A DNA stretch of 30,660 nucleotides, taken from contig JAHBMJ010001454.1 of NCBI GenBank assembly GCA_018398765.1, positions 1-30,660 on the forward strand, given 5' to 3'. Origin of the DNA: Chromera velia. Lineage: Eukaryota > Sar > Chromeraceae. This document shows, piece after piece, positions 275-29,916 of the stretch. The number at the start of each line of letters is the position of its first letter. Position 1 is the first letter of the stretch. The translations under genes were made by a program, and so were the position numbers. Under the pieces are notes generated by a model, which searched no databases, was not told the origin of the DNA, and worked only from the letters and a program-made list of their open reading frames with translations.

Positions 275-3200
275 GAAGATGCAACAAAAGACCACAAGAA
301 GCGAGCAAGAAGATAGGTGCGATCCTCGGATGGACCACAGAAAAGTAAGTCAGGTGGAATGGAAACTGTATGCAAACGAACTACATGTGGGTGACAATTC
401 TCGCCCCTCAACTATCAGCATCGCAGTCCCTGCTCACTCGTATGACGTGTACCTCCTCTTTTCTGCAATGTCTGATGCTCTTCTCTTTCTGATACAGGCT
501 GTGACTTTGTTTTGGAATCTTCCGGCAGATACTCGAGTTTCCCCTCTCACCCAAAAAATTCACTCATTCACTCACTCACTCACTCACTCACTCACTGACA
601 TGATGTAGGCCTCGACTCTTCTGTAGATCTGTCTGGAGAGCATGATGGCAGTCACTATAGTCCTCAGGCCGGGCTCCAGAAGTGCGATGTCTGCAGCGCT
701 CTTGGCTGCCTCTGTGGCACCAGCGACGGCAATACCGACAGTGGAGAGCTTGAGGGCGGGTGCGTCGTTGACTCCGTCTCCCGTCATGCCAATCAGGTCT
801 CCGTGCTTCATCAGAGCCTCCACGACCTTGAACTTGTGCTCGGGGTACACTCCTGCGACCAGTAGATGTGCACATGCAGACGTTTTATTCATGTGTTATG
901 TTATATATTATACGGAGTGGATGTTTGTGAGGCTATTTTGTACCATGGAAGCCAAGAGGAACGAAGAGAAAGCGGACAAAGGGGACTGGAGTGGTCCCCT
1001 TTCCCTTGTTTCTTGCTTTTCTCTTTCTCTTCTTTCCTTTTCCCTTTGTTTTTTATCGTGGAAAGCGAGACGAAGCAACATCTCTGTGGGTGAGGGAAAA
1101 GTTGAGTCAAAGAGTAGGCAATGACACGTCATATATCCATGACCATGAGAAGACGTTTTCCTAAGGAAGGCTTGTAAGCAAAAGATGTTTTGGGAATACG
1201 CTGAGCCGACTCAGTGGAAAAAGTGTACAAGCTGACCGGCAAATCCGTTGACAGATCTGCAGAACTCGGTGAAGTTGGCGCAGTTCATGAAAGGAGTAGT
1301 CTCTGTGGGGATCTTCCAGACGTCCTGACCACAGATGTTGATGCCCATGCCCAGCATCTTGGCAGTCTCGATGGCAATTGCCTGCTGGTCTCCAGTAACC
1401 ATCTTGACTTCCACTCCCAGGGATCTGCACACACAAAATTTTCATGCGTACTACTTCTGCACTCGGACACATATAAAAGCTCAACAGTAATTGTGAGCTA
1501 CACTGATACGAATTGACAGTCTGGTTGACTTTCACTCCTCAACTCATACTCCTCGACGGCTTACTTTGCCTGTGAGCTATGCAGTCAGAGCAGAAACGAA
1601 GCAGAAAACTCAAATGAAGACGATGTCGATTTTCTCCACCGTGTCACTAAAAGAAGGATATGGGATTTTATAAATAAATGACTTTCTGAGTACTACGAGA
1701 AGCAAGTCGAGCTACCTGGCGAGGTCGATGGTTTCCTTGGTGTCGTCACGGGGAGGGTCAAAGAGGGAGATGTACCCGATCAGCTTGCACACGCCGACGT
1801 CGTGGACGTCCTGGGGGTCGACTGCGGGGGTGGTCTCGATGGCAACTCCGAGAGTTCGGAGTCCTCTGGAGGCTCTCTCGTTGATCAGCGCGTCCTGTCT
1901 GTCGTGGTCCTCCTTGTCGTTGGCGGTGATTTGACAGATGATGTGTGGGGCGCCCTTGAGTACACGGATCTTGTTGCCCATGGGGTCGGTGCAGGTGGCA
2001 ATCACCTGAAGTCACACATTGAAAATGGAGGGAGTGGAATTGTGTAGAGTAGGTGCACATGCACAGATGCAGTGCAGCAAAAGGTGAGCAGTTCAAAAGG
2101 AAAGTTCCCCCCAGTGAGAAAAGGCAAAAGAGGGGACGGGACCGAAGAGAACAAAAACAGGTACACAAAAGAGTCGATCAGAGCGCCAAGCAAGAAAGAA
2201 AGTTGAGAGTGTAGAAGCGATACAATCCGACAGAGGCGCAGAAACGGTTTCGTACGATACTGTCAGCACTGTGCATGCATGCATGCATGCAGGAAAGACT
2301 CTGTCTGTGTACCTGCATTTCTATTGGCCTATCAGACGCCCCCCCCCCTTCATCCATCAACTAACTGACCTTTTTGTTGACAGGGTCGAATGGGACGACG
2401 TCGAGCTTCTTGTACTGGTTTGCCTTCTTCATGTCTGCTGCCTGTGTGATGGCTTTGTCGATGGGTTCGGGGTGTTCGGTGTTCGAGGCCAGAGCTGCGT
2501 ACACAAGCACCTGCAGCAGGCAGCAGGAGGGAGAACAATGAATTCGTATAAGCGAGATCGAATTTTCCAGTGAAGAAAAGTTGGATTGAACAATCGCCTA
2601 TCCTCCCAATGCAATGCGCCCTTCCTGGTAGAGCGGCCTGCCTCTACAAGGCCCTCGAGGGGTGCGCAGATCGAACAATGGGGCAGCAGATGTACGCGGA
2701 TAGACAGGTCGAAAGAGATAGATAGATAGAAAGAGAGAGACTGACGTCCTCGTTTGTGTATCCAGGTTCCGGTGCGATTTCCTTCTTATTCAACTCGAGG
2801 ATGTTCTTCGTGAGGGTTCCTGTCTTGTCAGAGCAGAGAATCTCCATTCCTGCCATCTCCTCGATGGCAGACAGACGCTGCACGAGGGCATTCTCCTTCG
2901 CGATCTCTTTTGATCCCACCGCCAGGACTGCACGCACACAGACACGCGTCCAACCATTTCTTTTCGCATGAACACATGACTCCATGAACAACAGAGAAGC
3001 AAGGGGGGCGGGGAGATGGAAAAGCAAAGAAAAAAGACAATCAGACGGAGCCGACTCTCTCTCCACTCTCTCCTCGCTGGCCCTCTCGATCGCCTCTTTG
3101 CATTCCCTCCAGAATCCCTTATAGACGCCTCCACAGCGCTTTATTTTGCGCTTTCTGGTCACTTACCGGCAGCAGTCACGACCGGCATTGCTGCAGGAAT

Positions 3201-7968: not shown

Positions 7969-10900
7969 ATGGCGTCCTCCGACAAGTATGCGGTGGGCAC
8001 GTTGGTCTTTGTGGCCGACGAGGAAATGGTATGGAAGCCTGCCGAAATCATCGCAGTAGCAGGCAAGGAGATCACAGTACGGACAGAGGGTGATCAGGAG
8101 GAGAGGCAGGTGAACTCCGAAAAGGAGCCGTTGTACCTACGAAGTGCTGAGATCTTTTCCGCCGAGGGTCTTGTAGGTCTCGATGACTTGACACAACTTA
8201 TGCATTTACATGAGGCCGCACTTCTTGATTCTCTGAACACCCGCTTTGATGTCGACAAGATCTACACCTTCACCGGGCCCATTCTAATCGCAGTGAACCC
8301 CTTTAAGACCATTCCAGGATTGTATGAATTTGACACACTCAAAAGCTTCATTTCCCCCAAAGTCAGCAAAACACCACACGTCTTTGCGACGGCCAACGCT
8401 GCCTATCGGGCCCTTTGTGACACGACCAGGTGCGTTTTCTTTGCCTCATTCAATTTGTTTTGCTTCTTTTTCCTCTCTGCCCCCTTCCCTGGCTCTTGCC
8501 CTTGCATTTCTTTTTCGTTTTCACGGTCGCTTCCTCGTTCTCCGCCCGTTTTTTGTCTGATTCGAATTTTGGCGTCTTACGATCACCGCCCTTAGAATAG
8601 CTTTAGAGTTTTCCGGGCTTTCCTTGGGTCTTTCCTCGTCAATGAGTCAATGACCATTGAGTTCCTTTTCACTTGGACTCTGCTTTCACTTCTCCCTCTT
8701 CCTCTCTTCTGTTTCCTTCTGTGCAGGTCTCAGACGGTTCTGATCTCTGGCGAGTCAGGTGCGGGGAAGACAGAGTCGACGAAATTCGTCATGAAGTTCC
8801 TGGCATCTGCGGGAACTCCGGACGCAACCAGCCACAGCACTGTGGAAAAACAGGTCCGTTAGTCCATTTGTTTTTTTTTTTTTGGTTGGACAGGCATGGC
8901 GGGTCGAAACTGATCTGAAGAGATACAGAAGGTCCAAATCACGTAGAAGAGAAAAAAAACTGACTGACTGACTGACTGACTGACTGACTGACTGACTGAC
9001 TGACTGACTGAATGAATGAATGAATGAATGAATGGAAAAGGAAAGAATGAAGGAAGGAACCTCTTCTTTTCTGACCGCCTATCGATCTCTTCAGGTTCAT
9101 TCTCTTTCTTCATCTTCCTGTATCGTTCAGTCTGTCCGTCCGTCCGTCCGTCTGTCTGTCTGTCTGTCTGTCTGAGCATGTCTGTCAGTCTCCTTCGAAT
9201 ATCCCCTCGTCATTCCTGTCTGCATATTCTCTTGTGGTCTATCCATCCATGCTGCCTCATTATGTCCTTTGTGGATCTTTCAGGTCCTGGAGTCCAACCC
9301 TCTCCTGGAGGCCTTCGGGAACGCGCGGACTCTTCGGAACGACAACTCGTCGCGGTTCGGGAAATTCATCGAGCTCCAGTTCAAAACCGAAAAAGACTCG
9401 GAAGGTCTCGTCAACGGGCGGGTGTGTGGTGCCCGTATCCAGACGTATCTTTTGGAGAAGGTCCGTGTAGTGGACCAGCAAGAGGGGGAGAGGAATTTTC
9501 ACATCTTCTACCAACTCACGGCAGCTTTTGCAAGGGGGTGCAAAATAGAGGGGGGGAAGCGGTTGTTCACCACCCCCGCGGGGGACACACTTGACTTGAC
9601 GGCGTACAACTCGTTTGACGTTTTCAAATACCTCACCAAGAGCTCCTGTAGTGAACTCGACGGGGTAGACGACGTTGAGCAGTTCTCACGGACTGTCGGT
9701 GCGATGTCGACTGTGGGCATCTCTGCTGAGGAGCAGCAGTCGATTTTCAGGGTCGTTGCTGCCGTTTTGTTTCTCGGGAATGTGAACTTTGAGGCCCCCC
9801 CGGGCAACAGCGAGGCCTCGGAGGTTGTCGACTCGTGCGCGCCGTTCTTGAAAAGTGCGGCACAGATCCTGGAGGTTGACACACAGGCATTGGCGGAGGT
9901 GCTCACCATCCGCACAATCAGAACGAGAGGTGAGTTGTGCGCTGTGGTATGTCTCTGCGGCTGAAGGCGAGGGGTGAAGACTTTTATGGATTGACGCATG
10001 TGACATGTACTGATTGATGGGTGGATCGCGAGGGGCCATTTGATTTCTTGGAATATCCCAGATCCCCCCCCTTCGTGTCGTGTCTTTTCCCNNNNNNNNN
10101 NNNNNNNNNNNNNNNNNNNNNNNNNNNNNNCCCCGCTCGTTCGTACTTTTGTGAGGCATCTTTTGATCCAGCCTTCTTTGCCCTTTTGCACTTGGAGGCC
10201 CTGATCTTTCACTTCCATCACACTCCTTGTTTTGTCTTTTTTCCGTTTACAAACTATAAACGGCATGTATGTGTTGTTGGATGAATTAATATTCTCTCTA
10301 TGATCGCATGCAGGGGAAGTGTTCAAGAAGGCTCTGCTCGTGCACGAGGCCGACGAGACCAGAGACGCCCTTGCAAGGGCTCTGTACGGGACTCTGTTTC
10401 TCCGAGTGGTCCAGAGGACGAATCAGTCGATCGGGTATCTGAAGGAAGTGAAGCTCAACTGCGGTCAGTCAGTTAGTCAGACAACTTCCATGGGTCTGTA
10501 TGAGGTGCTGCAGGTGTCTGCACTCCTGTTTTGTTCTTATTGTTTCCTGGTGGCGCACCTGCTCCGTCAGTTCAGGTTGCTCGTTGTTTGAGGATGAAGC
10601 AGAAAGAACATCTTGGGCGGGGAAGAACAAGCCCTGACTGAAAGGATATCAGAGAGTGAAGTAGAGGAGTAGGCGAACAGCTGCAAATGGAGGACAGGTT
10701 GCAAGTGTGGAAAGACAGGGTAGTGAGGTCGTGCAGATTCGCTTCAAGAGCTTTTCTCTCTTTCATGTCGGTTGGCTTTCTTGCGCTCCGCTGTTTCTCT
10801 CATTCTTTTTCTCCCTTCTGCATGAGTGCTCGCTCAGGTGTGCTGGATATTTTCGGTTTCGAATGTTTCCAGTACAATTCGTTCGAACAGTTGTGCATCA

Positions 10901-13900
10901 ACTTCACGAACGAGCGGCTGCAACAGTTCTTTAACACGTTCGTGTTCAAGTGCGAGGAGGAGTTATACTGCAAGGAGAAGATCCCGTGGGATCCTCTGGA
11001 CTTCCCCGACAACCAGGACTGCGTTGACATGCTGCAGGTAGGGTGGGGTGGGGTGGGTGGGATCCAGACTCTGTTTGGGACAGGGGGGGACAGCGGGATG
11101 GAGAGGGGAAAAGGAAAAGAGAGGGGAGGGGGGAAGAGGGAAGGCGTTCTCTTTTTTGCCTCTTTTTGTTCTCATTCCCTTTCCCTTTTTCTTTTTGCCT
11201 TCTGCTGGCCCTCTCCCCCCTTCCCTAATCCACAGCATGTCATCTCTCTCCGTCAACCCCCCTGTTCTTTCTCTGCCCCTGCAGGACAAACCGCACGGCA
11301 TCTTCCCGATGCTCGATGAAGAGTGCATCGTCCCTCAGGTTCGTCTGGCTGTCCCCCTGTGTGACTCGAGGTTAATTCCTCGGTTGCATAGCCATCCGTT
11401 TGTTTTCTCTCGTTCACCTCAGTTGCCCGTTTTCGTACTGTTCTTTTCACTTGATCAATCATCTGTCGCCTGCTTCTTCGAATGAGCTCCCTCCTTCCTC
11501 TTCATTCTGTCCTTCCTTCCTGCATATCTGCAGGGATCAGATCGTTCGTTCTGTTCGAAGCTCCTCAAGCAGCACTCTGCGCACAAGAGGTTCGATCCCG
11601 TCAAGACGAAACCCACGTGGTTCACCGTGAATCACTTCGCGGGGCCAGTCAAGTACTGTTCCGACGGTTTTCTTGACAAGAACAAGGATCAGCTTCTGCA
11701 AGACGTGCAGGAGTGCGTGAAGAAATCCTCCTTCACTTATGTCGCAGATCTGTTCTCTGAACTTCTCAACAGAGGGGGGGGGGCGGGGGCAGCCCCGGCA
11801 GACCCGCGGGTGACGAAGAAGAAAAGCAACACAGTGTCGTCTGAGTTCAAGGAGCAGCTGTCAGAACTCATGACTGCAGTAGGGGCGACAGACCCCCACT
11901 TTATTCGATGCATCAAACCGAACCCCCAAAACCTGCCTGATGAATTCGACAGGAAAAGTGTCACCGAACAGCTGAGGTATGGGGGGGTGTTGCAGGCGGT
12001 TCAGGTTTCTCGAGCAGGCTACCCTGTGCGTGTTGCACACACCGAAGCCTTCGATGACTACTGCGTTCTGGCTGAAAAGCCTGTACGTACAGGTTTACGG
12101 AAGGTCGCTGCACCGAAAGACCGTGCCCAGAAGTTGTTGGAGACTTTGACTTTGAGCCTGCCGATTCCGAAACTCGAGGACGATCCCCGCCGTCTCGAGG
12201 GGCAGAGGGGGAAGGGGAATACGTGGGCAGTGGGGGAGACCCTTTGTTTCTTCAAACAAGAGGCCTTTGAGGTCCTCAACACAAAGAGGCTCATGCTTCG
12301 AAATAAGTGTGCCACAAAGATACAGGCACGATGGAAGGCGGTTGTGGGTCGTCGCCAGTTCCTCGAAATGATGAGGAATGTGCGGAAGTGTCAGGCAGTG
12401 GCCAGGGGGGCACTTGCGAGGTTGCGAGTGCGGAATATTCGGAAAAGGAAGGCCGCTGTCCGTCTGCAGAGTTACGCCCGTATGCGCAGAGACCGGAAGC
12501 GGTTTCTGCGCTTTCGGAAGGCCGTGTGTTCTCTGCAGGCCAAGTGGAGGTGGAAGCAGTTCCGCCGTGCGTTTGCCCAAATCTTCCAGCAGAGAAAGGC
12601 TGCTGCGATCCAGGCACTGTACAGGGGTCGGAAGCAAAAGGTCTACTTCGAGAAATTGAAGAAGGCCGTCCGGATGGCACAAAACAAGTGGAGGTCTATC
12701 CTCGCACGACGCCAGCTGAGGCGTTTGAGACAAGAGCAGAAAGAAGCCGGGGCCCTCCTCTCGAAGGTCCGCTAGTTAGTTAACTTGAGTGAGGCAGGCA
12801 CGCAGGAAGCGATTGAGTTTGTCTCACTGAGTGCACGCCCTGTCAGGCAGTGAGTGAGCGACTGAGATCAAGTGAGCAAATGACAGAGAGATTGAGCATG
12901 TTCTACCGGTGATCTTTGTCTTCGCATGCGCGGTCTTTAGTCCTCGGCTTCCTTTCTTTTCTGTCGAACACTTTTCTTTCTGTCCACCCTTGTGAAAGGC
13001 CATGAGGTCCGACCGTGAACTCTTTCGTTTCTGTTTTTCATTTCCGGAGTCAAGAAAAGGATTGAACAGAAAGTCGTGCACCGATAGGAAGTAACTCTGT
13101 TCCCTTGCTGTTGTCCCCTGTTGCTTGCTGCCTCGTTGTTGCAGGTCCAAGAGCTCCAGACAGAGCTTCAGAAACACAAGAAGGAGGCGTCCGAGGCCGA
13201 GGCGCGATCCTTCTACGTGCAGGCTGAGGTCGACAAGAAGGACAGCCTGATAGCGTCTCTGAGAAAAGAGATCGAGCAGCTGAAAAAGTCTCTGGAAGAC
13301 GCAGAGACCCAGAGAGTAGAGATGGAGTCCCACCTCGAAGAAGCCCTCAAACAACAGACCAAAACAGAGAAGGAGAAGGAGGAAGCTGTCAAGGCCGCTG
13401 CTGTTGTTGCCCAGGCAGCTCCCGCCGCTGCGACCCCCACCTCCCGCGAGGTAGAAGCCCATGTCATGGAGGCCCTCCAACAGGCGAGGGAGGAGGGGCA
13501 GAGGGCGGAGACCAGAGCAAATACCTTGGCACAGGAGAAGGAGAATATCGAGAAAGATTTCAATCGTCTTGCCGAAGAGCACGAGGCGCTGAAGGGGCAA
13601 TACCAGACCCTCCTCGAGGGCGCGAGGCTCCAACAGCGTCAGCAGGGGTCCATCGACCTGCGTCGGGATTCTTCCGCCGCCTCCGTCGAAAAAGACCAAC
13701 CACCCACCACACCCGCCGCAGCCAAACCCGAAAAACCGTCAGAACCCACCCCAGCTCCGACCCCCAAGGTTGCAGCAGCCGACACCCCCAAACCGTCGGA
13801 CGCTCCTGTCGATCGTCCTGCCGATGGAGCTGAGACAACTCGACAGCGCCGTTCAGCACCCCATGTGCATGACGGAAAGCCATACGACATTGTGGTGTTG

Positions 13901-16900
13901 GGTATTGAGGGGAGTGGAAAGACTTCCATGTTGGAGCAGTTTTGCACGTCGATGGGGAATGAAGAAGGTCCAAAAAAGCTGCGGCGTGCAAAGGAAGAGG
14001 ACGCCCCTCATGTGCTCATCCCTGTTCCCTTCCAAGGAAAGGAGTTGAGGGTCCTCAAGTGCAGTGGGAAGAAACAGTATTATGCATTCGTCCGCGATCA
14101 GCTCGCAAGGGCGAAGTGGGTGTTTGCCGTTTACCAGCCGTCCATGGACAACCAGGAGATCTTTGCGTTCCTTGAAAAAGTTCTTCGGGATGCCATGGCA
14201 GCAGGGTGCAGGATTCTGGTGATTGGCAACACATGGCACGTTCAGAGGGGGCAAGAGTGGAAGGTCTGTCTTTTCTTTTCTGTCTGCTTGTAAATGCAAA
14301 TGATTGGTCGATCCATCGGGTGATTGATTGAAAGCACGTGCATGCACCCTCTCTAAGAGCCGCTCCTTTCTTTTTCGATTTATTCTCAGTCTCTGTTTTC
14401 ACTCCATTCGTCACCTGGGCTTGAAATGAGCTTCTCTCCCCCCCGCAGGGCTTTCCATGGTCCCTCTGACGTGCGCTTCTATCTTTGTGGAGATCTCGAA
14501 CCTCCTTTCCCTGTTCTTGCTTTCTCTTCCTGTTTTCAAGACTATGCCTCCTACTTGACGTTGCTTGCAGGTCGACTTGATCAGTGTGAAGGACCTCGCA
14601 GCCCGTCACCGATGCTATGCGGTGGAGACGGCATCCTTCTCGGATGCCCTCTTCATGGTGTGGGAGACGTTCACAGCACCCGTCCCCCAACCCGCACAAC
14701 CCGCTGTGCAGCCCATTCGACACCCGGCCCGCAATGTGGCGCCGCAGGAGCACAGACCCCGACCCACAGACACTCCAGCGGCAGGAGAGCCATCAGGGGA
14801 GGCAGAGGAGAGGAAGGGCGGTATCATGAACATAGGGGCGATGGCCCAGACTCTCCAGACGTGGTTCGGAAAGTCGCCCGCGGCCGGGCAGGGGAGGGAA
14901 CGGGAGAGGGAGAGGGAAGGGCTCTCCCAGAATGTTCTTCTCCGACCGTCGCTCAAAGGCACGGAGAGCATGCGGACACAGGCAGGGGGAAAGCCCAGAA
15001 AGGAGGCAGATTGGCAAGACCTGCGGTGCGTGCAGGAAGTCACAGAGAGCGAGAGTGCCGTCACTTGTCTGTGCTTTGGCCAAGAGCGTCACCACCTCCA
15101 TTACTACCTCATGGCGTGCGCGTCCAAGGATGGTAACATTGTCATCTACCGCATTTACAGGTCAGTGGTCACACACACAACCTGCAAGCTGGAAGGGGCT
15201 GAATTGGATCACAACACGCAGTCTGCAGTAGTTGGAGGAACGAAGAACGACTCTACACGACGAAACAGAAGCGTCTGAACAGTGCCTTCTCTCAATTTCC
15301 TGTCCCCTTTCTTCTCTGTCGTTTGAACGGTGCCTTCTCTCAATTTCCTGTCTCCTTTCTTCTCTGTCGTTTGAACGGTGCCTTCTCTCAATTTCCTGTC
15401 TCCTTTCTTCTCTGTCGTTTGAACGGTGCCTTTTCTCAATTTCCTGTCTCCTTTCTTCTCTGTCGTTTGAACGGTGCCTTTTCTCAATTTCCTGTCTCCT
15501 TTCTTCTCTGTCGTTTGAACGGTGCCTTTTCTCGATTTCCTGTCTCCTTTCTTCTTTGTCGTTTGAACGGTGCCTTCTCTCAATTTCCTGTCTCCTTTCT
15601 TCTCTGTCGTTTGAACGGTGCCTTTTCTCAATTTCCTGTCTCCTTTCTTCTCTGTCGTTTGAACGGTGCCTTTTCTCGATTTCCTGTCTCCTTTCTTCTC
15701 TGTCGTTTGAACGGTGCCTTTTCTCGATTTCCTGTCTCTGTCAAGCAAAGAGGAGAACGAATGTCTTCAATTGGGCTGTTCCGCTTTCATTTTTGAAAGA
15801 AGAGAAACCCTGCACCATCTACTTGCTCAAGTCAACCGACACACCTTTTTTCTACTCTCACTGCAAGCCTCGGTTCGATTTACCCTTCACCATACCTACC
15901 GCCGGGATCCTTTTGCGTTCCTTGAACGAACGCTTGTATGACGTAGTTGCGGGCTGCCACAAAGCTGCTCTTCATTTGTGATGCCTTCTCTGATGCCCCT
16001 TCTTGCTTCGGCTCTTGCAGGACGGAAATGGAACGAGCTCAGATGTCAAAGGACGATCTCGATCAGATTCAGTCTGTGTCATCGGGACAGAGCTCAAAGT
16101 GGGACACTGCTCCGCCCTCTGAGCACTCCCTCGTCGCGATCCACTCGCGTCTGATCGGTCACAGCCGCGCAGTGACTTCGATCTTCTTCTCCTTGTTGGA
16201 GGATCAGTTGGTCACAACCTCGATCGACAAGAGTGTGCGATTCTGGAGCGTGGACTCGGGAGAGATGCAGAAGGTGTTCACCGACAGCTCCCCCGCTCTC
16301 GTTGCGGCCTTCCTTCCCTTCAACCCGAAGGTCTTTGTCGCTGCCAATTCGAACGCCGTGCTGCGTCTGGTCAACGTCGAGAACGGAATTGTGCACCAGA
16401 AGCTGAAGGTCATTTTTCTTTTGACTTGATGTCTTCGAAAAGTGAGACCGGAAAACCTTTGTAGTAGGGGGTTCGAAGGGGAATACTATGCATGTGGCAG
16501 AATGAATGCGACTAGTGTCAGTGCTTGAAGCTGTAAGTCTTTTTTGTCTGGATGTCTGTACATCATTCTGCTTCCTGTCTGATTTAGAAGTGGCGCTATC
16601 TCTCTGATTGGCCCTTGTGCGGGTGCTTGCATTGCGATGATGAGGGTCTCCACGTACTCGTGTGTGCACTTCGTGTTCTCCCACATTTGTGCGTAAACGG
16701 GGGTTGATCATGTGGTTAATCGTGCTCATTTCGCATTCCTCACTCATTCTCCGCTTGCAGGTGGACGCCGAAGTGCGTGCTCTGAAATTCGACGACACGG
16801 GGCTCTTTTGTATGGCGGGAACGAAGACGGGGAACATTCATGTCCTCGAAGCCTCTGACAACGCGAACCTGAAGTTCAAATTCAGGCTCACAGTCGCGAG

Positions 16901-17318
16901 GGGTGCCATCACGTGCATTACCTTTGTTCCCTCTCAGGACCCAGGACGCAACCCGATGCTGCTCGTCAACTCCTGCGACTCCATCGTCTCCATCGTCGAT
17001 TGCATGTACGGCCCTGCGCCGGGCGTGCTCTCGAGCCTCCAGGTGCAGCACCGAGTCAAGGTGGCGCACTCGCTCTTGCCCCTCCGATGCTGCTACAGCG
17101 GCTTCGGGGGTGGATACCTGATTTCGGCCTCCGAAGATAAGGAGGTGTACGTTTACGCTCTCCGTAAGGAGATGCACTACAAGTCAGCGTATCTAGGCCA
17201 CCACCGTGCCCCGGTGCTGGCGGTGGCAACGAATGTGTCAGACTCCCTGCTCGTCAGTGCCGACTCCATGGGGTCGATAGCAATGTGGAGACGGTTTGAC
17301 TTCAGCCACCTGTTATGA
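7969..17318 (+). CDS. Myosin F-like unconventional myosin with six IQ motifs, coiled coil, Ras-fold domain and WD40 propeller
   Basis: This is an actin-based motor. Apicomplexan MyoF proteins position organelles and vesicles. Exons: 7969-8429, 8727-8853, 9284-9929, 10314-10463, 10838-11037, 11285-11338, 11534-12766, 13145-14263, 14571-15160, 16021-16408 and 16761-17318. They sum to 5526 nt, 1841 residues plus stop, with every phase matching. The motor covers about 60-790: P-loop GESGAGKTE (162-170), switch [10 protein letters not shown] (215-223), switch II DIFGFE (465-470) and actin-side RCIKPN (671-676). Six IQ-like units with IQ, CQ, LQ or AQ cores follow at about 803-955. Next come a coiled coil with an Ala/Pro break (958-1150), a Pro-rich linker, a G-like domain (1203-1364) and seven WD40 blades (1480-1841). 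ATG 7969 leads straight into an SH3-like N-terminal segment. Reading through intron 7 would stop two codons past the IQ region. I know of no G domain in described MyoF tails. Confidence 0.92.
8958..9033. repeat. (GACT)n-(GAAT)n microsatellite in myosin intron 2
   Basis: About thirteen GACT units run into about six AATG units. A further (GTCC/GTCT)n tract lies at about 9128-9174 in the same intron. Neither reaches the splice sites at 8854 and 9283. Confidence 0.9.
10092..10130. other. Assembly gap (39 N)
   Basis: A run of 39 N lies in myosin intron 3 and is flanked by C-rich sequence on both sides. It does not touch an exon: exon 3 ends at 9929 and exon 4 begins at 10314. A collapsed C-rich repeat is the likely cause. 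Confidence 0.98.
13880..14672 (+). other. Ras-like (possibly pseudo-GTPase) domain within the myosin tail
   Basis: Residues 1203-1364 of the myosin, interrupted by intron 8 (14264-14570). PYDIVVL leads into a P-loop GIEGSGKT (1210-1217), followed by a helix. Two strands end at LKCSG (1261-1265), where DxxG is expected. Then come a helix, a hydrophobic strand VFAVYQP, a helix, the strand ILVIGNTWH (N1319 in the NKxD place), and YAVETAS (1346-1352) in the position of the SAK loop. The last helix ends at WETF. Length (about 160) and strand order match small GTPases. The P-loop Lys and Thr are kept, but the Asp of DxxG and the Lys and Asp of NKxD are replaced. GTP binding is therefore doubtful, and a scaffold role is possible. 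The family call rests on reading by eye. Confidence 0.65.
15018..17315 (+). other. C-terminal seven-blade WD40 propeller of the myosin
   Basis: Residues 1480-1841, in exons 9 to 11. Repeat cores can be read as SAVTCLCF...[14 protein letters not shown]...VRFWSV, LVAAFL...LRLVNV, VRALKF...NIHVLE, ITCITF...[13 protein letters not shown]...EVYVYAL and VLAVAT...SIAMWRR. Seven blades would close a propeller. In myosins of this class the tail propeller is thought to bind cargo. The same block recurs in the minus-strand protein at 25749-29916 at roughly three-quarters identity over the last exon (counted by eye). Confidence 0.85.
15283..15738. repeat. 48-bp minisatellite, about 9.5 copies, in myosin intron 9
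   Basis: Nine full copies and one partial copy of a 48-bp unit run from 15283. Copies differ at only a few sites (TTCTCTC or TTTTCTC, CAATTT or CGATTT). Because 48 is divisible by three, frames stay open on both strands and make 16-residue repeats. The array is purely intronic: exon 9 ends at 15160 and exon 10 begins at 16021. Confidence 0.95.
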
Positions 17319-20330: not shown

Positions 20331-23300
20331 ATGTCGCAAACAATCGACAGCTCCCAGACTTCTCCTCCAGGTGAGTTGTCCCCGCCCTTTCTTTCCCCAT
20401 CGGTGGAGACTTCTTCCACGCCTGGCAAGATTGGTTTCCAATTTTTTTCTTCTCGTCCCTTCGACTGTTTTGCAGCTGCAGATAACCCGCAAATGACTGG
20501 GACTACATCATTGCAGAGGACAGACAATGCGCTCTGCTCGCTCATTGAACATGCTCGCCCGAGTGCAGAGGTGAGCCGCTCGGAGTCTCCCGTCTACGTT
20601 CAAAAGTTCAATCGGCGCCTCCAGTCTCTCTGTGTTTGCCGCTTTGTTTGTTTCTCAAAAGAAGCTTGCCTGCGGGTTTCCATTACAGGAGATATCGGAG
20701 CTTGCCTCAGACAGGAATGGCTTCGGCTTGGCGTTGGTTCTCCTGGGGTTCATCTGAACGGTGAGTCGAAGGAATGAAAAACGTGAAACTCTCAACTCTG
20801 CTGTTGCTTTGGGTTCTCTCGTTCAGGCGGAAACATATTGAGAAGAATGCATATTGTGAAGAGCCCGAAAAGTTTTTCTGTCAGAGTTTTGGGAGATGAG
20901 CTTCAGTGTCTGGTGCTGTTGTTTTTGTGTGTGCAGCGACGCACTCTCTTGCCCCTGGCAAGTCTTGACCTTTCGGGTAAGTGGCTGTTTTTGGACGGCT
21001 TGTCGACTGATGCACTGTGCAAGGAGTGTGTCTTCAAGACGCATTCAGCATCTCTGTTTTTCGGAGTTTCATTCTCTTCCTCGGTCTTCTCGCGGGACTT
21101 CCTTGAGCTGTTGTCCCTTCCGTGGCTGCGAACCTGCCTTTGAAGGTCTCTCACCGTGTCCCCTTGTCACTTTTTCTCTTCCTGCGAACCTGCCTTTGAA
21201 GGTCTCTCACCGTGTCCCTTTGTCACTTTTTCTCTTCCTGCGAACCTGCCTTTGAAGGTCTCTCTCCATTCCATCGCCCCACGTGTGAGCGCCCTCTCTG
21301 CAGGCTTCTCGCTGAGTACCCGAAAGCTGAAGCTTCTTCTGTCCTCCCTTCCCTCGGGGCCTGGTGTTGTGGAGACGCTCAGATGCGGTCAGTGGAGGGG
21401 CGGGCGACTTCTCTGACCCTTTCACCGCAAGATCAGGGTAAAGACAACGAGTGAAAGAGAGGGGGAATAGAGGAGTCGTTGTCTCGTCGCATGAGAGTGA
21501 TCATCGAAGCAGAGATGCATGTGCCCCTTCATTTTGTTTTTCTGTCTTGAACTGCTCTTTCATGCATCCTCTCCCTCCCCGCAGGTCCTCGTGTCTGCAA
21601 GGACGCCTGCCTGCCTGCACTCCTCGACTTCCTCCAGCGAGTCAGGGCAGGGGGGACAGGAGGGGCGCCGTCGATCTCTATGAAGACTCTCAACCTCTCC
21701 AGTCAGTTGTTCAGCGAGCTTTAAAAGGCCCATGGAGCAGTGCCTGTGGGCAAGTAAATGGACTTGATTGATGTGGAATGTTGTGCCAGCACACGCGGTC
21801 GCTTTGTTCTTTTTTGTTCCCGTGAAACCAGGGAGGAGAAAAGCACGGAAAACTTTTACAGTCAGCTCGACGCTCTCTCTCTCTCTCCCTTTTCCCTCCC
21901 CCCCCACGCATGCAGAGTGCGATCTCGCTCAGGCAGCTGTCGCCATTTTTCACCAGCTACCTCGGTCTCTTGAGCACCTCAATCTGAGTGGTCAGTCATC
22001 CTGAAGCTTCCCAAGACAACAAGGAATGGGACAGATTGTAAGAGAAATCTGAATGTGCAAGGTCCACCACTGGATAGCAAGAATTGGGGGACGCTGTGTC
22101 TCTGTCCGGTCTCTGTCCGGTCTCTGCCCTTGGATCCGCTGGCCTGTTCTTGTGCTGCTTTTCGTACGGAGAGGCAGAGAACAACAAAAAGAAAGCTTCC
22201 ATGGCAACTGCCCGAATTGGCTCGGCTGCCTTGTAGAGATGGCCTCCGTGTGAGTGGAGGGGGGGATCGATTCTCTCTGCCGTCTCTGGGTCTGCAGGTT
22301 TCTGTCTCTTTCTCTGTCCCTGGTGCGTGTCTCGTTGTGTCTGCCACTTTTACATTTTGCTTCTGTCTGCAAGAGTATTGGTTTGCTGATGCTTGTGTGC
22401 CCATGAAGGAGTGCGATTCTTCGTATTCTCGCGGATTGTCCTCTGAGTTCCCTCCCCTTTGTTCCGGTCACACACGGTTTTTCTTTCCAGGTCTCCTTCT
22501 GATCCCTCACGTTTCAAAAAGTGATCCATGAACTCACGCGCTCCTCACATCTGCAGGCAACCGTCTCCGCACTATGTCTATGGAAAGCCTCGCGTCTGTA
22601 TTCTCGTTTGGATGGCTCCCGCACCTCCTTAGTCTTGACTTGAGTGACAACCCTCTGGGCCCTTCAGGGCTGAAGGCGTTTGCGAGGGGCCTGTCTTCGT
22701 CTCCGCAGTCACTCCCCCTACAGTCCCTGAAACTTGCCCGAACAAAGGCCAAAGCAGAGGGGGTGGGAGCACTAGCAGGAGCACTGAAAGCAAAGAAGAC
22801 CACCTCTCTGCAGACCCTTGACCTTGCAGAGAACGAGATGAGGCCGGCAGGGTTGAAGCACCTGTCGTCTGCAGTCAATACAGAGGCAGTGCCTCAGTTG
22901 AGGGTCCTGATACTGAAAAACAATTTGCTCACTTATGTGGCATTCGAAGAGAGGAACTGGTGTTCCGCAGCCGAACTTCTCTCCACTAGCTCATTGAAAG
23001 AGTTGGAGGAGCTTGATTTGAGTGAGAATCGGTTGTTTGACATGGAGATTGGGGGTGCGGGCACGGGTAGTCAGTTGTCCGCTGCCGCTGTTGCAGTTCC
23101 AGGTCGTTTCCCAAAACTGCGACGGCTTGATCTTGGGGGTATATATCCAGCGGTAATCAGCTCTGAGCAGTTGGCAGCTTTTGCGACTTCTTTGGGGGTG
23201 GGGGGCTTGCCGTCTCTTCAAGAGCTCGTCCTCCCTTTCGGGGGTTCTGACCACAATCCGAATCCAGAGGGGGTCGTTGCTCTTGCCAATGCCCTTACTT

Positions 23301-24952
23301 CTGGGAACCTGTCTCAGTTGAGATGTTTGAAATTGCAGTTTCGATACGATATGACAGATGAGGCATTTGCGGGGCTCTGTCGCAGTCTGGCAACAGGTAA
23401 GGTATCCCTCTTGCAGTTTCTAGATCTGGTTCTGAACGATAATGACAGCGCAGAGGGGGTGGGGGCCCTTGCTGAAATGATTGGAGAAAAAAGGTTGTCC
23501 TTTCTTGAAAGTTTTCGGCTGAAGCTGTCAGCCGTAAAGGGGTTTGCAGTGTCGGGCTTGGGACTAGCGTTTGGTTGTGGGGGGTGTCCGGGTCTCCAGA
23601 AGCTCGACCTCAAATGGTCGGAGGAAGGGGATGAGGGGGTGAGGGGACTAGCGGAGGGTTTGGGTGGGGGGCGTTTGTCGTCTCTTCGGGATCTTTGTCT
23701 CAGTGTGGATTGTGGTGTGGGAGGTGAGGGTGAGACGGAGTGGGCAGGCGAGGGGTGTAGAGCTCTAGGGGAGGTTTTGAGCACCGGCAAGGTCCCTTCC
23801 CTCCGGACTGTTAGAATAGATTGGCCTTGCGACCAGAGCTTTGCTTCTCTGTGTGAGGGTTTGTCTCAAGGGAGAGTTGACCCTCCTGTGATGGTCGATA
23901 TTGATTTGCGGCGGAGAGGCCTAGAGAATGATACATATTTGGGAGTGAGGAGATTTGCCGAAACAATTCGAGCAGGCAAGTTGTCGGGGTTGCGGAAAGT
24001 GAGCTCAACGAGGTATCGGATGCTAAGCCGAGAGGGGGCGGGGGTGCTCGGAGAGGCCCTCACACACGCAGATGCCTTGTTGAACTCTCTAGAGGAGCTT
24101 CACATTCTCTCTCAAACACAAGAAGCGAATGCCTTTTTTTTCCAGGGCCTCTCCAGAGGTACGGGACAACTGCCCGCCCTGCATACCCTCCACTGTGCCC
24201 ACGGTGCGGAATCCACCATCGGAACAGATGGTGCTCAGTCCCTGTCCGCCCTGGTGAGTGGGGGCAGGGTTCCTTCCCTCAAAGACCTGAAAGTGGAATT
24301 GGAGGGGATCGGGCAGGAGGGGATGCAAGCGTTTGCTGCTACCCTGAGTTCTCCCCACGTCTTTGCATTGCGCCGACTTGATGTGTTCAAGTTGACCAGT
24401 TTTCACTCCGCAAATCCCGCTGTAGAAGTGGACATACTCTCAGGTGCGCTGAGCTCTGGGCATCTCCGCAGGTTGGAAGAGCTGTGGGTGAGGGGTCTTT
24501 GGGGGGTTGAAGACGTTCGCGCGTTGTGTGTGGGTCTGGGCAGTGGTAAGTTGTCCTCCCTTCGCACGCTTCATTTCTGGAACTGCAGTTTCGGGGGGCA
24601 GGGCAGCAGGGCTCTCTCAGAGGTTCTGGTTGCAGAGAAACTGCCAAGCTTGAGAATACTCGAGGCAGAGTTGACAGGGCTCGCAGACGAAGGGGTCAGT
24701 GCGTTCGTAGACGTATGGATGACCCGAGACCCCCCTCCCCTGCAGCATTTAAACTTTCAGCACAATGCACTCACCGGCGCAATCGTGAATCCAGTGTTGA
24801 GACTGCTGGGCTCGCAGCAGCTGCCTGCTCTCGAGACATTGAGTCTTTTCGGGAATGAAAGGATTGATGAGAGAGCGAGGGAGTCGCTCCTTGGAACGTT
24901 TCCAGAAGTTGTAAAGTTTGCTAGAAAGTTTGATTGGTATCTCATGAAGTAG
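20331..24952 (+). CDS. Leucine-rich-repeat protein, ribonuclease-inhibitor-like repeats (5' exons uncertain)
   Basis: The secure exons are 20937-20976, 21304-21387, 21585-21701, 21916-21990 and 22557-24952 (TAG stop). All four junctions are phase 1. They join to read LASLDLSG-F, TLRCG-P, TLNLSK-CDL and HLNLSG-NRL, so each splice lands just after an LxLS core. The last exon encodes 797 residues of repeats with LxxLxLxxN/C cores and helical segments such as GVGALA, typical of 28-29-residue RI-like LRRs. The repeats degenerate toward the middle. No signal peptide, membrane segment, kinase or NACHT domain is visible, so a cytosolic binding protein is likely; the partner is unknown. The 5' end is a guess: ATG 20331 with exons 20331-20370 and 20476-20570 splices well, but 20689 onward does not join the LRR frame cleanly. 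An alternative start lies near 20714. Confidence 0.7.
21125..21265. repeat. 56-bp direct repeat, about 2.5 copies, in an LRR-gene intron
   Basis: Copies begin at 21125, 21181 and 21237 and are almost identical; the third is truncated. The array lies between the LRR exons ending at 20976 and starting at 21304. Confidence 0.9.
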
Positions 24953-25748: not shown

Positions 25749-26520
25749 TCACGGTAACTGGCTGCAGTCATGCCGTCTCCACAGCGCAATCGACCCCTGC
25801 GAGTCGGCGCTGACGAGGAGCGTGTCAGTGCGATTCGTTGCCACGCTCAGCACTGGTGCACGGTGGTGAGCTAGGGAACCAGACTTGTAGTGCATCTCCT
25901 TGCGGAGAGCGAAAACGTACACCTCCTTGTCCTCGGACCCCGAAATCAGGTATCCACCTCCGAAGCTACTGTAGCAGCATCGAACAGGCAGGAGTGCGTT
26001 CGCGACCTTGACTCGGTGCTGTACCTGGAGACGACAGAGCACCCCAGGGGCAGGGCCGTACAGACAATCAACGATCGAGACGATGTCGTCGCAGGAGTTG
26101 ACGAGAACAAATGGGTTCCTTCCCTCTTCTGGAGACGGAACAAAGGTAATGCACGTGATTACACCCCTCGCAACGGTGAGTCTAAATTTGAATTTCAGGG
26201 TCGCACCATCGATAGCTTCGAGGACGTGGATATTGCCCGCCTTCGTCCCTGCCATCAGATATTTCCCCGTGCCGTCAAATCTCATCGCACGGACTTCAGA
26301 GTCCACCTGCAAGTAAGAGGAGAACGAGCGAGGAGCGCACGAGGATAAGACAGGCAAAACAAATCCACGGTCGCTCCCTCTTGTCGGACTAAACAGAGAC
26401 ACAAATACAAAAGCGCACATGGTCGCACATGCTCTCCCTCTCCCCCCCGCTTTCTCCCTCCCCCCTTTCTCTCTCTCTCTGCGCATGTCCCGCTCCCTCC
26501 GTCTCACGCACGTACACACG

Positions 26521-26568
<48 letters not shown>

Positions 26569-29500
26569 GAGAGAGAGAGAGAGAAAGAAAGAGAGAGAAA
26601 CACGCTTTCGTACGCACACGCACACGCACACACACGCAAAGACACGCCCACGCAACGAAAACGCACACCCACTCCAAGGAATGCACCTCGAGACCCTTGC
26701 AACTCCCTTCTTATAAAAGCACAGATGCTTTAGCCGTAAGGCCTTGCCTGAAATGGCAATCTACCTTTAATTTCTGGTGCACAATTCCGTTATCGGCATT
26801 GAGCAGACGCACTACAGCGTTCGAGTTCGCAGCGACCAACACCTTCGGATTGGAGGGAAGGAAGGCTGCCCCCAAATTAGCCGAACTGTCGGTGAAAGTT
26901 TTCATCAGCTCCCCAGAGTCCACGTTCCAAAGACGTGCACACTTATCAATGGAAGTCGTAACCAACTGATCTTCTGTTGGGGAAAAGAAGATAGAGGTTA
27001 CTGCGCGACTGTGCCCGGTCAGGCGATGGTGCACGAAGACGAGGTCGTTGTCGGAGGACGGGGGGGAGTCCCACTCTGACCGCGTTCCCGATGCCCCCGG
27101 GGCCGCAGATTGGATCTGATCAAGCTCGTCCTTCGACATCTGAGCTCGTTCCATTTCCGTCCTGCAAAGAGCGAGTAAGGAAGGATGGAGGAAGGATGGA
27201 GGAGAGCAGAGGTTTCTTAGGAGAACCAACACACCCATCCCACGAAATGTCTCTCTCTGTCATGGAAACAGTCGCAGGGAGGGCGCCAGATTCGGGACGT
27301 CGTAGAGATCCTGTGCGTTCACAGTGTGTTCTTCGAGAAGCTCACATTTTGTGTTAGGAGTGACGGGAGGAAGAATGAATGAAGGAATCACGGCAGGCAA
27401 GTAGGGGAAGAGACAGGAAGGTATGGGTCAATCCACTCGACCCAGAGAACGAGAAGAAAACGGGAAGTGCACATTGTCTCCAATCCGCTCGTCCCTTCCC
27501 TGTTCATCTGATGCACTGTCTGCTGTCTATCTGCTGACCTGTAAATGCGGTAGATGACAATGTTCCCATCCTTGGACGCGCACGCCATCAAATAATAATG
27601 AAGGTGGTGACGCTCTTGTCCGAAACAGAGACAAGTGACGGCACTCTCGCTCTCGCTCCCCTTGACTTCCTGCACGCACCGCAGGTCCTTCCACTCTGCC
27701 TCCTTTCGACCCTTCGCCCCAACAGCCGACCGCATGCTCTCCGTGCCCCTGAGGGACGGGCGGAGAAGCACCCCCATCGAGGGACGCTCCGTCTCATTCC
27801 GTCGTTGAGAAGAGGCTGCCTGGGCGGCCTGCGCCACAGCACCCTCAGAAGATGCAGGCACCTCGGACGGCTCTGCTACGGTTGGCTCGGGTTGGGATTT
27901 CTCTACCAACACATTTATGTCGGAGCTCTCAACGGGAGGGACCCCGGGAATGGGGGGGGAAGGGGAAGGAGGATCACTGAGGGCAGCCGTGAGGCTGAGC
28001 ATCTCGTCAACGGTGGGGGGGGCGGCTTCCACACTGAGGAAGTATTTTTGTGCGACTGCCCTGATGCGTGCTATTGCATTCTCTCGTATGCTCTTCGCTG
28101 CATTGGGGCGCTGGACAGGATTTTCGGAAGGGGGCTCTCTTGGGGCTTCGGCTGCGGCTGCTGCCACGGCTGAGGCAGGCTCAGAGGGCGGTTCTGACTT
28201 CCCTTCTTCGGGTTCGGGTGGTGGCGTTTCTAGCTGCAGAAGGGAGTCGATAGACACCTGCAGAAGGGTCTGATAGAGTCCCTTCAGCAAGTCGTGCTTT
28301 TTGGCAATAGACGAGAGCTCCTGCTCCGCTGCCTCTTTCTCTTTCACGATCTCACGATGTCTCTCCACTGCATGCTGCATCATTTTGTCAACCTCTTGTT
28401 TCTGAACCTTCCTGAAAGTCTCTGTTTCCTTCCAACCTTTTTTGATCTGTGAGATCTCTTCTTGCATTGACTGTAGCTGCTTCTTCATACACTCCTTCTC
28501 CTCCCGAAGACAAGAAAGCATATTTGCATTCTCTTTTTTTTCCTGCACGACCACCTCAAATTTCTTTATAGTTTCCAACTGTTTCTTTGCCGTCTGCTCG
28601 ACGAGCTTCTGGTAGTCTGCCAACCCCTTTGCCTGCTCCCCTTCCACATGCTCTAACTTCATTTTCAGTGCAGACACCTCTTTTTCGAGTGCCTCTTTGT
28701 CCTGCGTCAATACGACGCGTTCTGCCTCCCCCTTTGCTTTCTCCCCTTTCAAACGCTCTAAATTCATTCTCAGTGCAGACACCTCTTTTTCGAGTTTCTG
28801 GTGGTCTGCCTCCCCCTTTGCCTTCTCCCCTCTCAAACGCTCTAAATTCATTCTCAGTGCAGACAACTCTTTTTCGAGTTTCTGGTGGTCTGCCTCCCCC
28901 TTTGCCTTCTCCCATCTCAAACGCTCTAAATTCATTCTCAGTGCAGACAACTCTTTTTCGAGTGCCTCTTTGTCCTGCGTCAATACGACGCATCTCTGCT
29001 TGGCAGTCGAAAGCTCTGTTCTCAAAGCCGCGGAACTAGAGAGCTCCGCTTGCAGAGACGCTTTCTCACTTCTGAGTGTTTGCTCAATCTCCTCTGTACG
29101 CTTCATTAATACCATTTCCCTTTCCCCCGCTTGCTTCATTGGCATTTTCTCCCTCGCCTCCGTTTGTTTTTTGAGCGTTTTTTCCCTCTCTTCCGCACGT
29201 ACGCAGGCCTCCCTTTGAGCCTTTAACTGCTGCTCTAGCGCTGACTTTTGCTTCGCGAGAACGGCAAAATTGGCGGCATTCCGTTCTTTCTCTTCTTTTT
29301 CTGCCTGCGTCTGCTGTAAGAACATTTGCTGCTTCGCAAGCTTCACGGCCTGCTCTACGTGGAAGTTCATCTCTTCCTGTACTCTTGCCTCCCGCGTCTC
29401 GAAAGTCCTTTTGAGTTGAGCAACTAGCTCTTCCTTTTTCCGACACTCCTGGACAGCTGCTCGCTGGGCAGCATCCAGAGCATCACAACGCTGCAACAAG

Positions 29501-29916
29501 GAGGCGTTCTCCCTTCGCAACACATCCACTGCAGCTGCCTCATGCTGATGGCCTCCTGGAAATCGCCCCTGTTGCTCTACAGAATGCTGAGGGGTGGGAT
29601 GACGGAAACGGTGGCTCTCGCTGCCTTCCACTGAAAAAGCCCCAGGGCCAAAGGGGGCCCCGGAATCCAAAGAACTCCCAGCACCGAATGGAGCACCCCC
29701 ACTGAATGGACGGGGCACTGCAGCGCCCGCGTGCACGGGATCGCGTGGGGTGTGCGCCTGGGCAGGGATGCCAGGAGGTGGCGAGAGAGGCTGTGAGGCG
29801 TTTTGCTGGGAACACCCATTGCTTCCCTCTTGAGACACGTTTTTCACACCATCTGTGTCTGAATCAAACCATGATTTTAGAGTTGCCGTCAAGACATCTC
29901 TTCCTTCGTCTTCCAT
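25749..29916 (-). CDS. Coiled-coil/WD40 protein, motorless paralogue of the myosin F-like tail
   Basis: Three exons, 27539-29916, 26765-27161 and 25749-26306, sum to 3333 nt (1110 residues plus stop), and the phases agree. The N-terminal 130 residues are Gly/Pro/Ser-rich. Residues about 130-595 form a long coiled coil rich in Glu, Lys and Gln. A Pro/Ala-rich linker follows, then a WD40 propeller from about 744. From LLRPSLRGTESMRS onward it aligns with the myosin without gaps of note. Both introns sit at the same codons (after IYRIYR and after HQKLK) in the same phase, and the final exon is 558 nt in both genes. The end of the coiled coil also matches (LKGLYQTLL against LKGQYQTLL). No motor, IQ or G domain is present. 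It could share or compete for the myosin's cargo or oligomerise with it; this is inference. ATG 29916 opens the frame and no upstream exon is evident. Confidence 0.88.
26521..26600. repeat. (CA)n-(GA)n compound microsatellite in an intron
   Basis: About 22 CA units are followed by GA/GAAA-type repeats. The array lies in the second intron (26307-26764) of the coiled-coil/WD40 gene. The matching intron of the myosin (16409-16760) has no such array. Confidence 0.92.
28655..29000 (-). repeat. 84-bp coding tandem repeat, about four units
   Basis: Units starting near 28757, 28841 and 28925 are nearly identical, and a diverged fourth lies around 28660. Each encodes 28 residues with cores LEKE-SALRMNLERL and GEKAKGEADHQK, i.e. 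four heptads, at about residues 309-420. The length preserves both the frame and the coiled-coil register. Confidence 0.9.

Follow-up and report, generated by a model that had tools for sequence, protein, structure and literature searches.

MyoF of Toxoplasma and Plasmodium, a myosin of class XXII/XXVII, is described as a motor followed by an IQ neck, a coiled coil and a C-terminal WD40 domain (PMC13120683, PMC6851706, PMC4456382). In the T. gondii protein, the coil is reported to form a dimer and the propeller to build a multi-motor oligomer, and the article mentions a binding adapter of unknown identity at the inner membrane complex (PMC13120683). The structure of the region between coil and propeller (residues 1175-1585 of T. 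gondii MyoF) is listed as unknown, low-confidence short helices and disorder being described there, and the terms 'gtpase' and 'ras' occur 0 times in the main text of the article (PMC13120683).

The DNA analyzed here is a 30,660-nucleotide contig of Chromera velia (JAHBMJ010001454.1), referred to below as the window, which is the whole of contig C1452 in a search of the same genome (177.8 Mb, 4040 contigs). It encodes a myosin that has the architecture of the Toxoplasma and Plasmodium MyoF and carries, between the coil and the propeller, a Ras-like domain of a kind that the description of the T. gondii protein does not name. The best reading of this domain, probable if by no means secure, is that of a conserved, non-switching pseudo-GTPase that would serve as a docking module of the MyoF-type tail. 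At least four further copies (a lower bound; only the best candidates were scored) are present in the genome, one on each strand of contig C226 and one each on contigs C3579 and C2992, and a query with another copy recovered the same places. Three of the four have no stops in the part seen, with G domains 60, 64 and 53% identical to that of the myosin, and the C2992 copy is broken by 3 in-frame stops in the G domain. The myosin copy and the three without stops are collectively called the stop-free copies.

The myosin gene and its Ras-like domain

The myosin gene and the parts of its tail are as follows, all on the plus strand.

7969..17318, plus: MyoF-type myosin gene, 11 exons, 1841 aa, spliced frame open, introns GT...AG
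7969-8429, 8727-8853, 9284-9929, 10314-10463, 10838-11037, 11285-11338, plus: exons 1-6
11534-12766, 13145-14263, 14571-15160, 16021-16408, 16761-17318, plus: exons 7-11
13145..13873, plus: coiled coil and Pro/Ala-rich linker preceding the G domain (first part of exon 8), from sequence
13874-14672, plus: whole Ras-like G domain, aa 1201-1364, between coil and propeller, exons 8 and 9
13874..14263, plus: exon 8 part of the G domain (through NTWH), aa 1201-1330, Pfam Ras
13901..13924, plus: P-loop GIEGSGKT (G1), aa 1210-1217, from sequence
14057..14071, plus: KCSGK replacing DxxGQ (G3, switch II), from sequence
14228..14239, plus: NTWH replacing NKxD (G4), from sequence
14264..14570, plus: intron 8, phase 0, within the G domain; C3579 and the stop-bearing C2992 copy are spliced at the matching point, ahead of V-D
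14571..14672, plus: exon 9 part of the G domain, aa 1331-1364, with ETAS (14625-14636) at the G5 position
14673..15160, plus: remainder of exon 9, with a Pro/Ala/Gln-rich linker, a 12-residue block and the start of the propeller; aligns with the window paralogue (see below)
16021..17318, plus: WD40 propeller, exons 10 and 11 (intron 16409-16760), Pfam

In a Pfam scan of the full-length protein, for which 25 of 42 families are listed, Myosin_head covers aa 72-753 (E 2.1e-214), Myosin_N scores slightly below its cut-off, and propeller models span from about aa 1480 to the C-terminus. A loose pattern yields 5 IQ-like motifs at aa 809-928, and the coiled coil is assigned from sequence. The combination that defines the MyoF type, namely motor, IQ, coiled coil and WD40 in one protein, is present, and the domains are ordered motor, IQ neck, coiled coil, G domain, WD40 propeller. 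The exons were joined on the basis of their open frames and splice signals. The attribution of exon 8 to the motor gene likewise rests on sequence: the exon 7/8 junction is in phase 0 and open, the coil begun in exon 7 continues into exon 8, and exon 8 has neither the early Met nor the SWF motif typical of the motorless genes.

The preliminary description had read a Ras-like domain between the coiled coil and the WD40 propeller, and a profile search against small GTPases bears this out. The excised domain matches Pfam Ras at 24.0 bits, with a cut-off of 21.6 (E 3.3e-5, profile positions 2-143 of 162), and Ras is the sole family above its cut-off. This match disappeared in all sequences in which the P-loop was kept and the remainder shuffled (0/10). 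The exon 9 part contributes 4.7 bits; when it was shuffled and exon 8 kept, the scores were 18.5-19.6 bits and 0/7 reached 24.0. Among the nearest PDB sequences at E <= 10, 27 of 30 are chains of the Ras superfamily or of the Roc domain of LRRK2, the best being Rit1 (E 0.0044), and a four-row profile of the stop-free copies gave a best E of only 0.021 against the PDB. When the stop-free copies were compared by hhalign with a Ras-type set, consisting of 3 Rab-like proteins from the same genome and Rap2A, the two aligned over 136-137 columns (probability 94.8, E 5.3e-8). The score, 58.5, compares with a best of 43.6 in 50 column shuffles that retained the first 26 columns, including the P-loop (0/50 reach 58.5); the P-loop carries much of the profile-profile score, not all of it.

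The structural side of the earlier proposal fared less evenly. A single-sequence AlphaFold2 model of the exon 8 part (no alignment; best of five, pLDDT 69.4, pTM 0.65) displays the small-GTPase element order b1-a1-a-b2-b3-a2-b4-a3-b5, including the b2-b3 hairpin, but comparison of the model with known folds returned no significant structural match. The support for the fold comes from sequence profiles and from the order of elements in a single model of middling quality. Altogether, it is very likely that the stretch is genuine coding sequence for a Ras-like domain.

The joining of exons 8 and 9 in this frame, on which the domain as first described depended, is likewise supported, by comparison: an intron interrupts the domain at the corresponding codon of C3579 (VDRLELQDL after K) and of C2992 (VDRLALQEL), and none of the exon 9 shuffles matched the native score. 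In both C226 copies, GT follows the matching codon.

Altered loops under constraint

Among the G1 to G4 motifs, only the P-loop conforms to its consensus: GxxxxGK[ST] is present in the myosin, and GxxxxGKT is intact in 3/4 stop-free copies, the P-loop Lys being replaced by Thr in the C226 plus-strand copy. No invariant Thr of switch I (G2) is found between a1 and b2 in the stop-free copies. The changes at the G3 and G4 loops are exactly those of the preliminary description, and they are common to all four stop-free copies: DxxGQ is replaced by KC[SAN]GK, and [NT]KxD by N[TAL]W[HNSG], with Asn retained and Lys and Asp missing. Invariant across the four are E-G-S-G-x-T in the P-loop, KCxGK at G3 and N-x-W at G4. 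ET[AT] at the G5 position is retained in the C3579 and C2992 copies.

With lysines for Asp57 and Gln61 and without Asp119, a Ras-type protein would be unlikely to run through a GTP cycle. The Chromera domain probably has no GTP/GDP cycle: lysines occupy both switch II positions at which Ras has the Mg2+-contacting D and the water-activating Q, G4 has lost the Asp that specifies guanine, and in one copy the P-loop Lys is missing as well. The last of these losses suggests that nucleotide is not essential.

For the exon 8 part, dN/dS is 0.236, 0.145 and 0.170 in 3 of the 6 pairs, at dS of 1.0, 2.3 and 2.8, respectively, the values at dS 2.3 and 2.8 being rough and dS being saturated in the other 3 pairs; as a yardstick, the last WD40 exon gives 0.185 between the myosin and its paralogue in the window. 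At the level of sequence, the stop-free copies are shown to keep their altered loops under purifying selection.

Motorless relatives and the rest of the window

The G domain appears, from the sequences that surround its copies, to live also in motorless proteins, and a further motorless tail gene, this one without the domain, is found in the window itself.

25749..29916, minus: motorless tail paralogue in the window, exons 29916-27539, 27161-26765 and 26306-25749, 1110 aa, spliced frame open
C226, 4500-16400, plus and minus: two genes, head to head, each with coiled coil or linker and the putative pseudo-G domain
C3579, 22082-28813: gene with coiled coil or linker, putative pseudo-G domain and WD40
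C2992, 8020-14641: gene with coiled coil or linker, putative pseudo-G domain and WD40; stops in the G domain and WD40

At E <= 0.001, myosin heads were matched on nine contigs, which do not include C226, C3579 or C2992, and the MyoF neck as a query found a single other match in the genome, not a close one (E 0.004). The two C226 genes diverge and their first Met codons lie 848 bases apart, which leaves little space for a motor. In both C226 genes, only the exon 8 part was found; the G exon is followed by an assembly gap, and the stretch that precedes each gap has no exon 9 match. A candidate copy on C1114 was dropped, being a weak match (E 0.5) with stops. WD40 stretches on C648, C3678, C1863 and C256 are 33-78% identical to the MyoF propeller, with no myosin-head match on these contigs.

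The window paralogue consists of a coiled coil, linker and WD40, with neither a motor in the part present nor a G domain; its motorless status covers the sequence up to the contig end, 744 bases past its first Met, and a distant upstream exon may lie further out. It lies in inverted orientation relative to the myosin on the same contig and shares its last two introns. From myosin aa 1367 to the end, the two are 69% identical over 479 columns, and the coil and linker of exon 8 align with the paralogue at 28% identity over 289 columns (blastp, E 8e-20, with the composition correction off, which favours coils). In a MAFFT alignment, the linkers of the two proteins run together both before and after the G domain, which the paralogue lacks, and the paralogue's linker (27541-28260) has no Pfam Ras match at E <= 10. 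The 35 residues found in the paralogue at the place of the domain were considered as a vestige of the last strand and helix of Ras, and this was rejected on a shuffle test: their Smith-Waterman score was reached by 1391/2000 shuffles against the G domain, 1341/2000 against its exon 8 part, 342/2000 against its exon 9 part and 298/2000 against Rap2A, and by 301/1000 at the DNA level. In a tree of the last WD40 exon, the G-less paralogue nests inside the G-bearing genes (bootstrap 71), which would mean that the domain was lost there; with five sequences, one of which (C648) was included without known G status, the tree is too small to press.

By eye, and with no statistics attached, an SWF motif stands at the N-termini of the window paralogue and of both C226 proteins, with SWFDS common to the paralogue and one of the C226 copies. 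On the same footing, a [ST]-W-F motif after a helix-like stretch recurs as TLQTWFGKS in the myosin linker (14571-15160) and, close to the N-termini of three motorless proteins, as TLKSWFDSD, GMMSWFDSS and FLDSWFQEM. The coil coding sequence of the window paralogue contains an 84-base tandem repeat (28721-28963), and intron 9 of the myosin gene a 48-base tandem repeat (15272-15738, 9.7 copies, 97% matches). Between the two MyoF-tail genes lies a long LRR protein (22532-24952, plus strand; LRR_6, E 5e-17). An open frame at 2644-3162 on the minus strand, with no Pfam family at E <= 0.001, contains a 10-residue motif that we take to be the phosphorylation motif of P-type ATPases.

Outside this genome, pattern scans were run over prokaryotic and viral contigs, other eukaryotes lying outside their scope. 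The G domain gave 8 pattern matches in prokaryotic genome contigs, and in viral contigs exon 7 gave 6 and the four-copy alignment 44, none of them confirmed. A Rap2A stretch gave 47 matches in prokaryotic and 10 in viral contigs, also none confirmed, and the failure of even this query suggests that the scans are weak.

Possible functions and comparison with known systems

The preliminary description had offered two ideas on function, a G-like module that couples cargo binding to nucleotide state and a dead G domain used as an adaptor; the former has no support here, and the latter fits better, given loops that are invariant in 4/4 stop-free copies and the loss of one P-loop Lys. A G domain of the Ras superfamily would have been turned into a conserved pseudo-GTPase module of the MyoF-type tail. 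Its position between a dimerizing coil and an oligomerizing propeller makes it well placed as a docking surface, a protein-binding platform through which MyoF and its motorless sisters may interact with one another or with a partner common to them, be it cargo, membrane or adaptor. Nucleotide, if bound at all, would be structural.

Several observations weigh against this interpretation. The Ras match drops to 21.4 bits (E 2.1e-4), below the cut-off, in a 520-residue piece of the myosin (aa 961-1480). Scanned singly, C3579 yields nothing for Ras at E <= 1, the plus-strand copy of C226 reaches Ras at only E 0.14, and the C226 minus-strand copy matches Roc (3.3e-4) and Ras (0.0022), both below their cut-offs.

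The alternative that survives best, if still an unlikely one, is a slow sensor: the domain would bind nucleotide (GDP, GTP or ATP) without hydrolysis, and its bound or empty state would alter what the tail binds. The P-loop retained in three of the stop-free copies is in its favour, as is human dynein light intermediate chain LIC1, which retains GDP and is regarded as non-switching (PMC4359372). It has to contend with the absence of the switch II and G4 aspartates from every stop-free copy, with the lack of an invariant Thr in the switch I region, and with the copy that has Thr for the P-loop Lys.

It is improbable that the domain is another P-loop NTPase, of AAA, STAND or kinase type, with the Ras resemblance of the myosin copy partly due to chance. 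C3579 alone does weakly match AAA-type, NACHT and STAND models and not Ras, a STAND model is weakly matched by 4/4 copies (best E 0.01), and the P-loop supplies much of the profile score; but with the excised myosin domain no Pfam family other than Ras passes its cut-off, the alignment of the four copies with Ras-type proteins over 136-137 columns beats all 50 shuffles, and the hairpin and element order predicted by the model are those of small GTPases. Slightly less credible still is a divergent but working GTPase with non-canonical catalysis, which would give the myosin a switch of its own: the invariant KCxGK and NxW could form an alternative active site, but this would have to operate with lysines at the Ras Asp57 and Gln61 positions, without the guanine-specifying Asp and, in one copy, without the P-loop Lys. 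That the domain is a dispensable insertion heading for loss, as the broken C2992 copy and the G-less paralogue might suggest, is very improbable in view of the dN/dS of 0.15-0.24 and the motifs that the stop-free copies have in common, and the C2992 stops extend along the WD40 region, which suggests a gene that is dead as a whole and not a domain in the course of being lost.

A bolder proposal, to which we give limited credence, builds on the docking module. Motorless tails that combine coil, pseudo-G domain and propeller could co-assemble with the single MyoF motor, by way of propeller and coil, into mixed oligomers, and the pseudo-G domain, present in only some of the subunits, would then decide the partner or cargo of each oligomer. 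In that case, both the force of the motor and its address would be set by headless sister subunits. The motorless sisters make MyoF a candidate for regulation by dilution, and the docking module itself would provide a handle on how the MyoF tail reaches its partners.

Whole-protein annotation can miss the domain, because its Ras score falls under the Pfam cut-off once flanks are included; the 25 families listed, out of 42, for the full-length myosin do not include Ras. For this reason, relatives elsewhere may be overlooked. The figure legends of a survey covering 2,269 myosins list RA, RhoGAP, RhoGEF, WD40 and other domains, and no Ras-type G domain (PMC2375034); the terms 'gtpase', 'ras' and 'rab' are absent from the main text of two later myosin surveys (PMC5583752, PMC3942036). 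Among the literature listed, with subscription journals mostly outside its coverage, there is no report of a myosin with a Ras-type G domain in the tail.

The Chromera domain resembles the Ras and Rab small GTPases in its P-loop and, for the exon 8 part, in its predicted element order, and differs from them in lacking the G2, G3 and G4 motifs and in being embedded between linkers of a tail. With the Roc domain of the Roco proteins (LRRK2) it shares the location of a Ras-like domain inside a large multidomain protein, and Roc ranks second among the Pfam matches of the myosin copy (17.2 bits) and first among those of the C226 minus-strand copy (21.3 bits), in both cases below the cut-off of 27. 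Unlike in Roco proteins, no COR, kinase or LRR model is among the 25 families listed for the full myosin. For function, the closest analogue is the light intermediate chain of dynein: its Ras-like domain docks on the motor, is regarded as non-switching and likewise lacks DxxG in the equivalent loop (PMC4359372). The light intermediate chain is, however, a separate subunit of a microtubule motor, with insertions of its own, and its model does not appear with the 12 Pfam families that are listed for the excised Chromera domain at E <= 10, a list from which weak matches may have been filtered. If the docking interpretation holds, an actin motor would gain a counterpart of this Ras-like domain of dynein. 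Pseudo-GTPases are known from dynein and from the kinetochore, where CENP-M has been named as one (PMC4359372); what would be new is the presence of one in a myosin tail and in the motorless sisters of that myosin.

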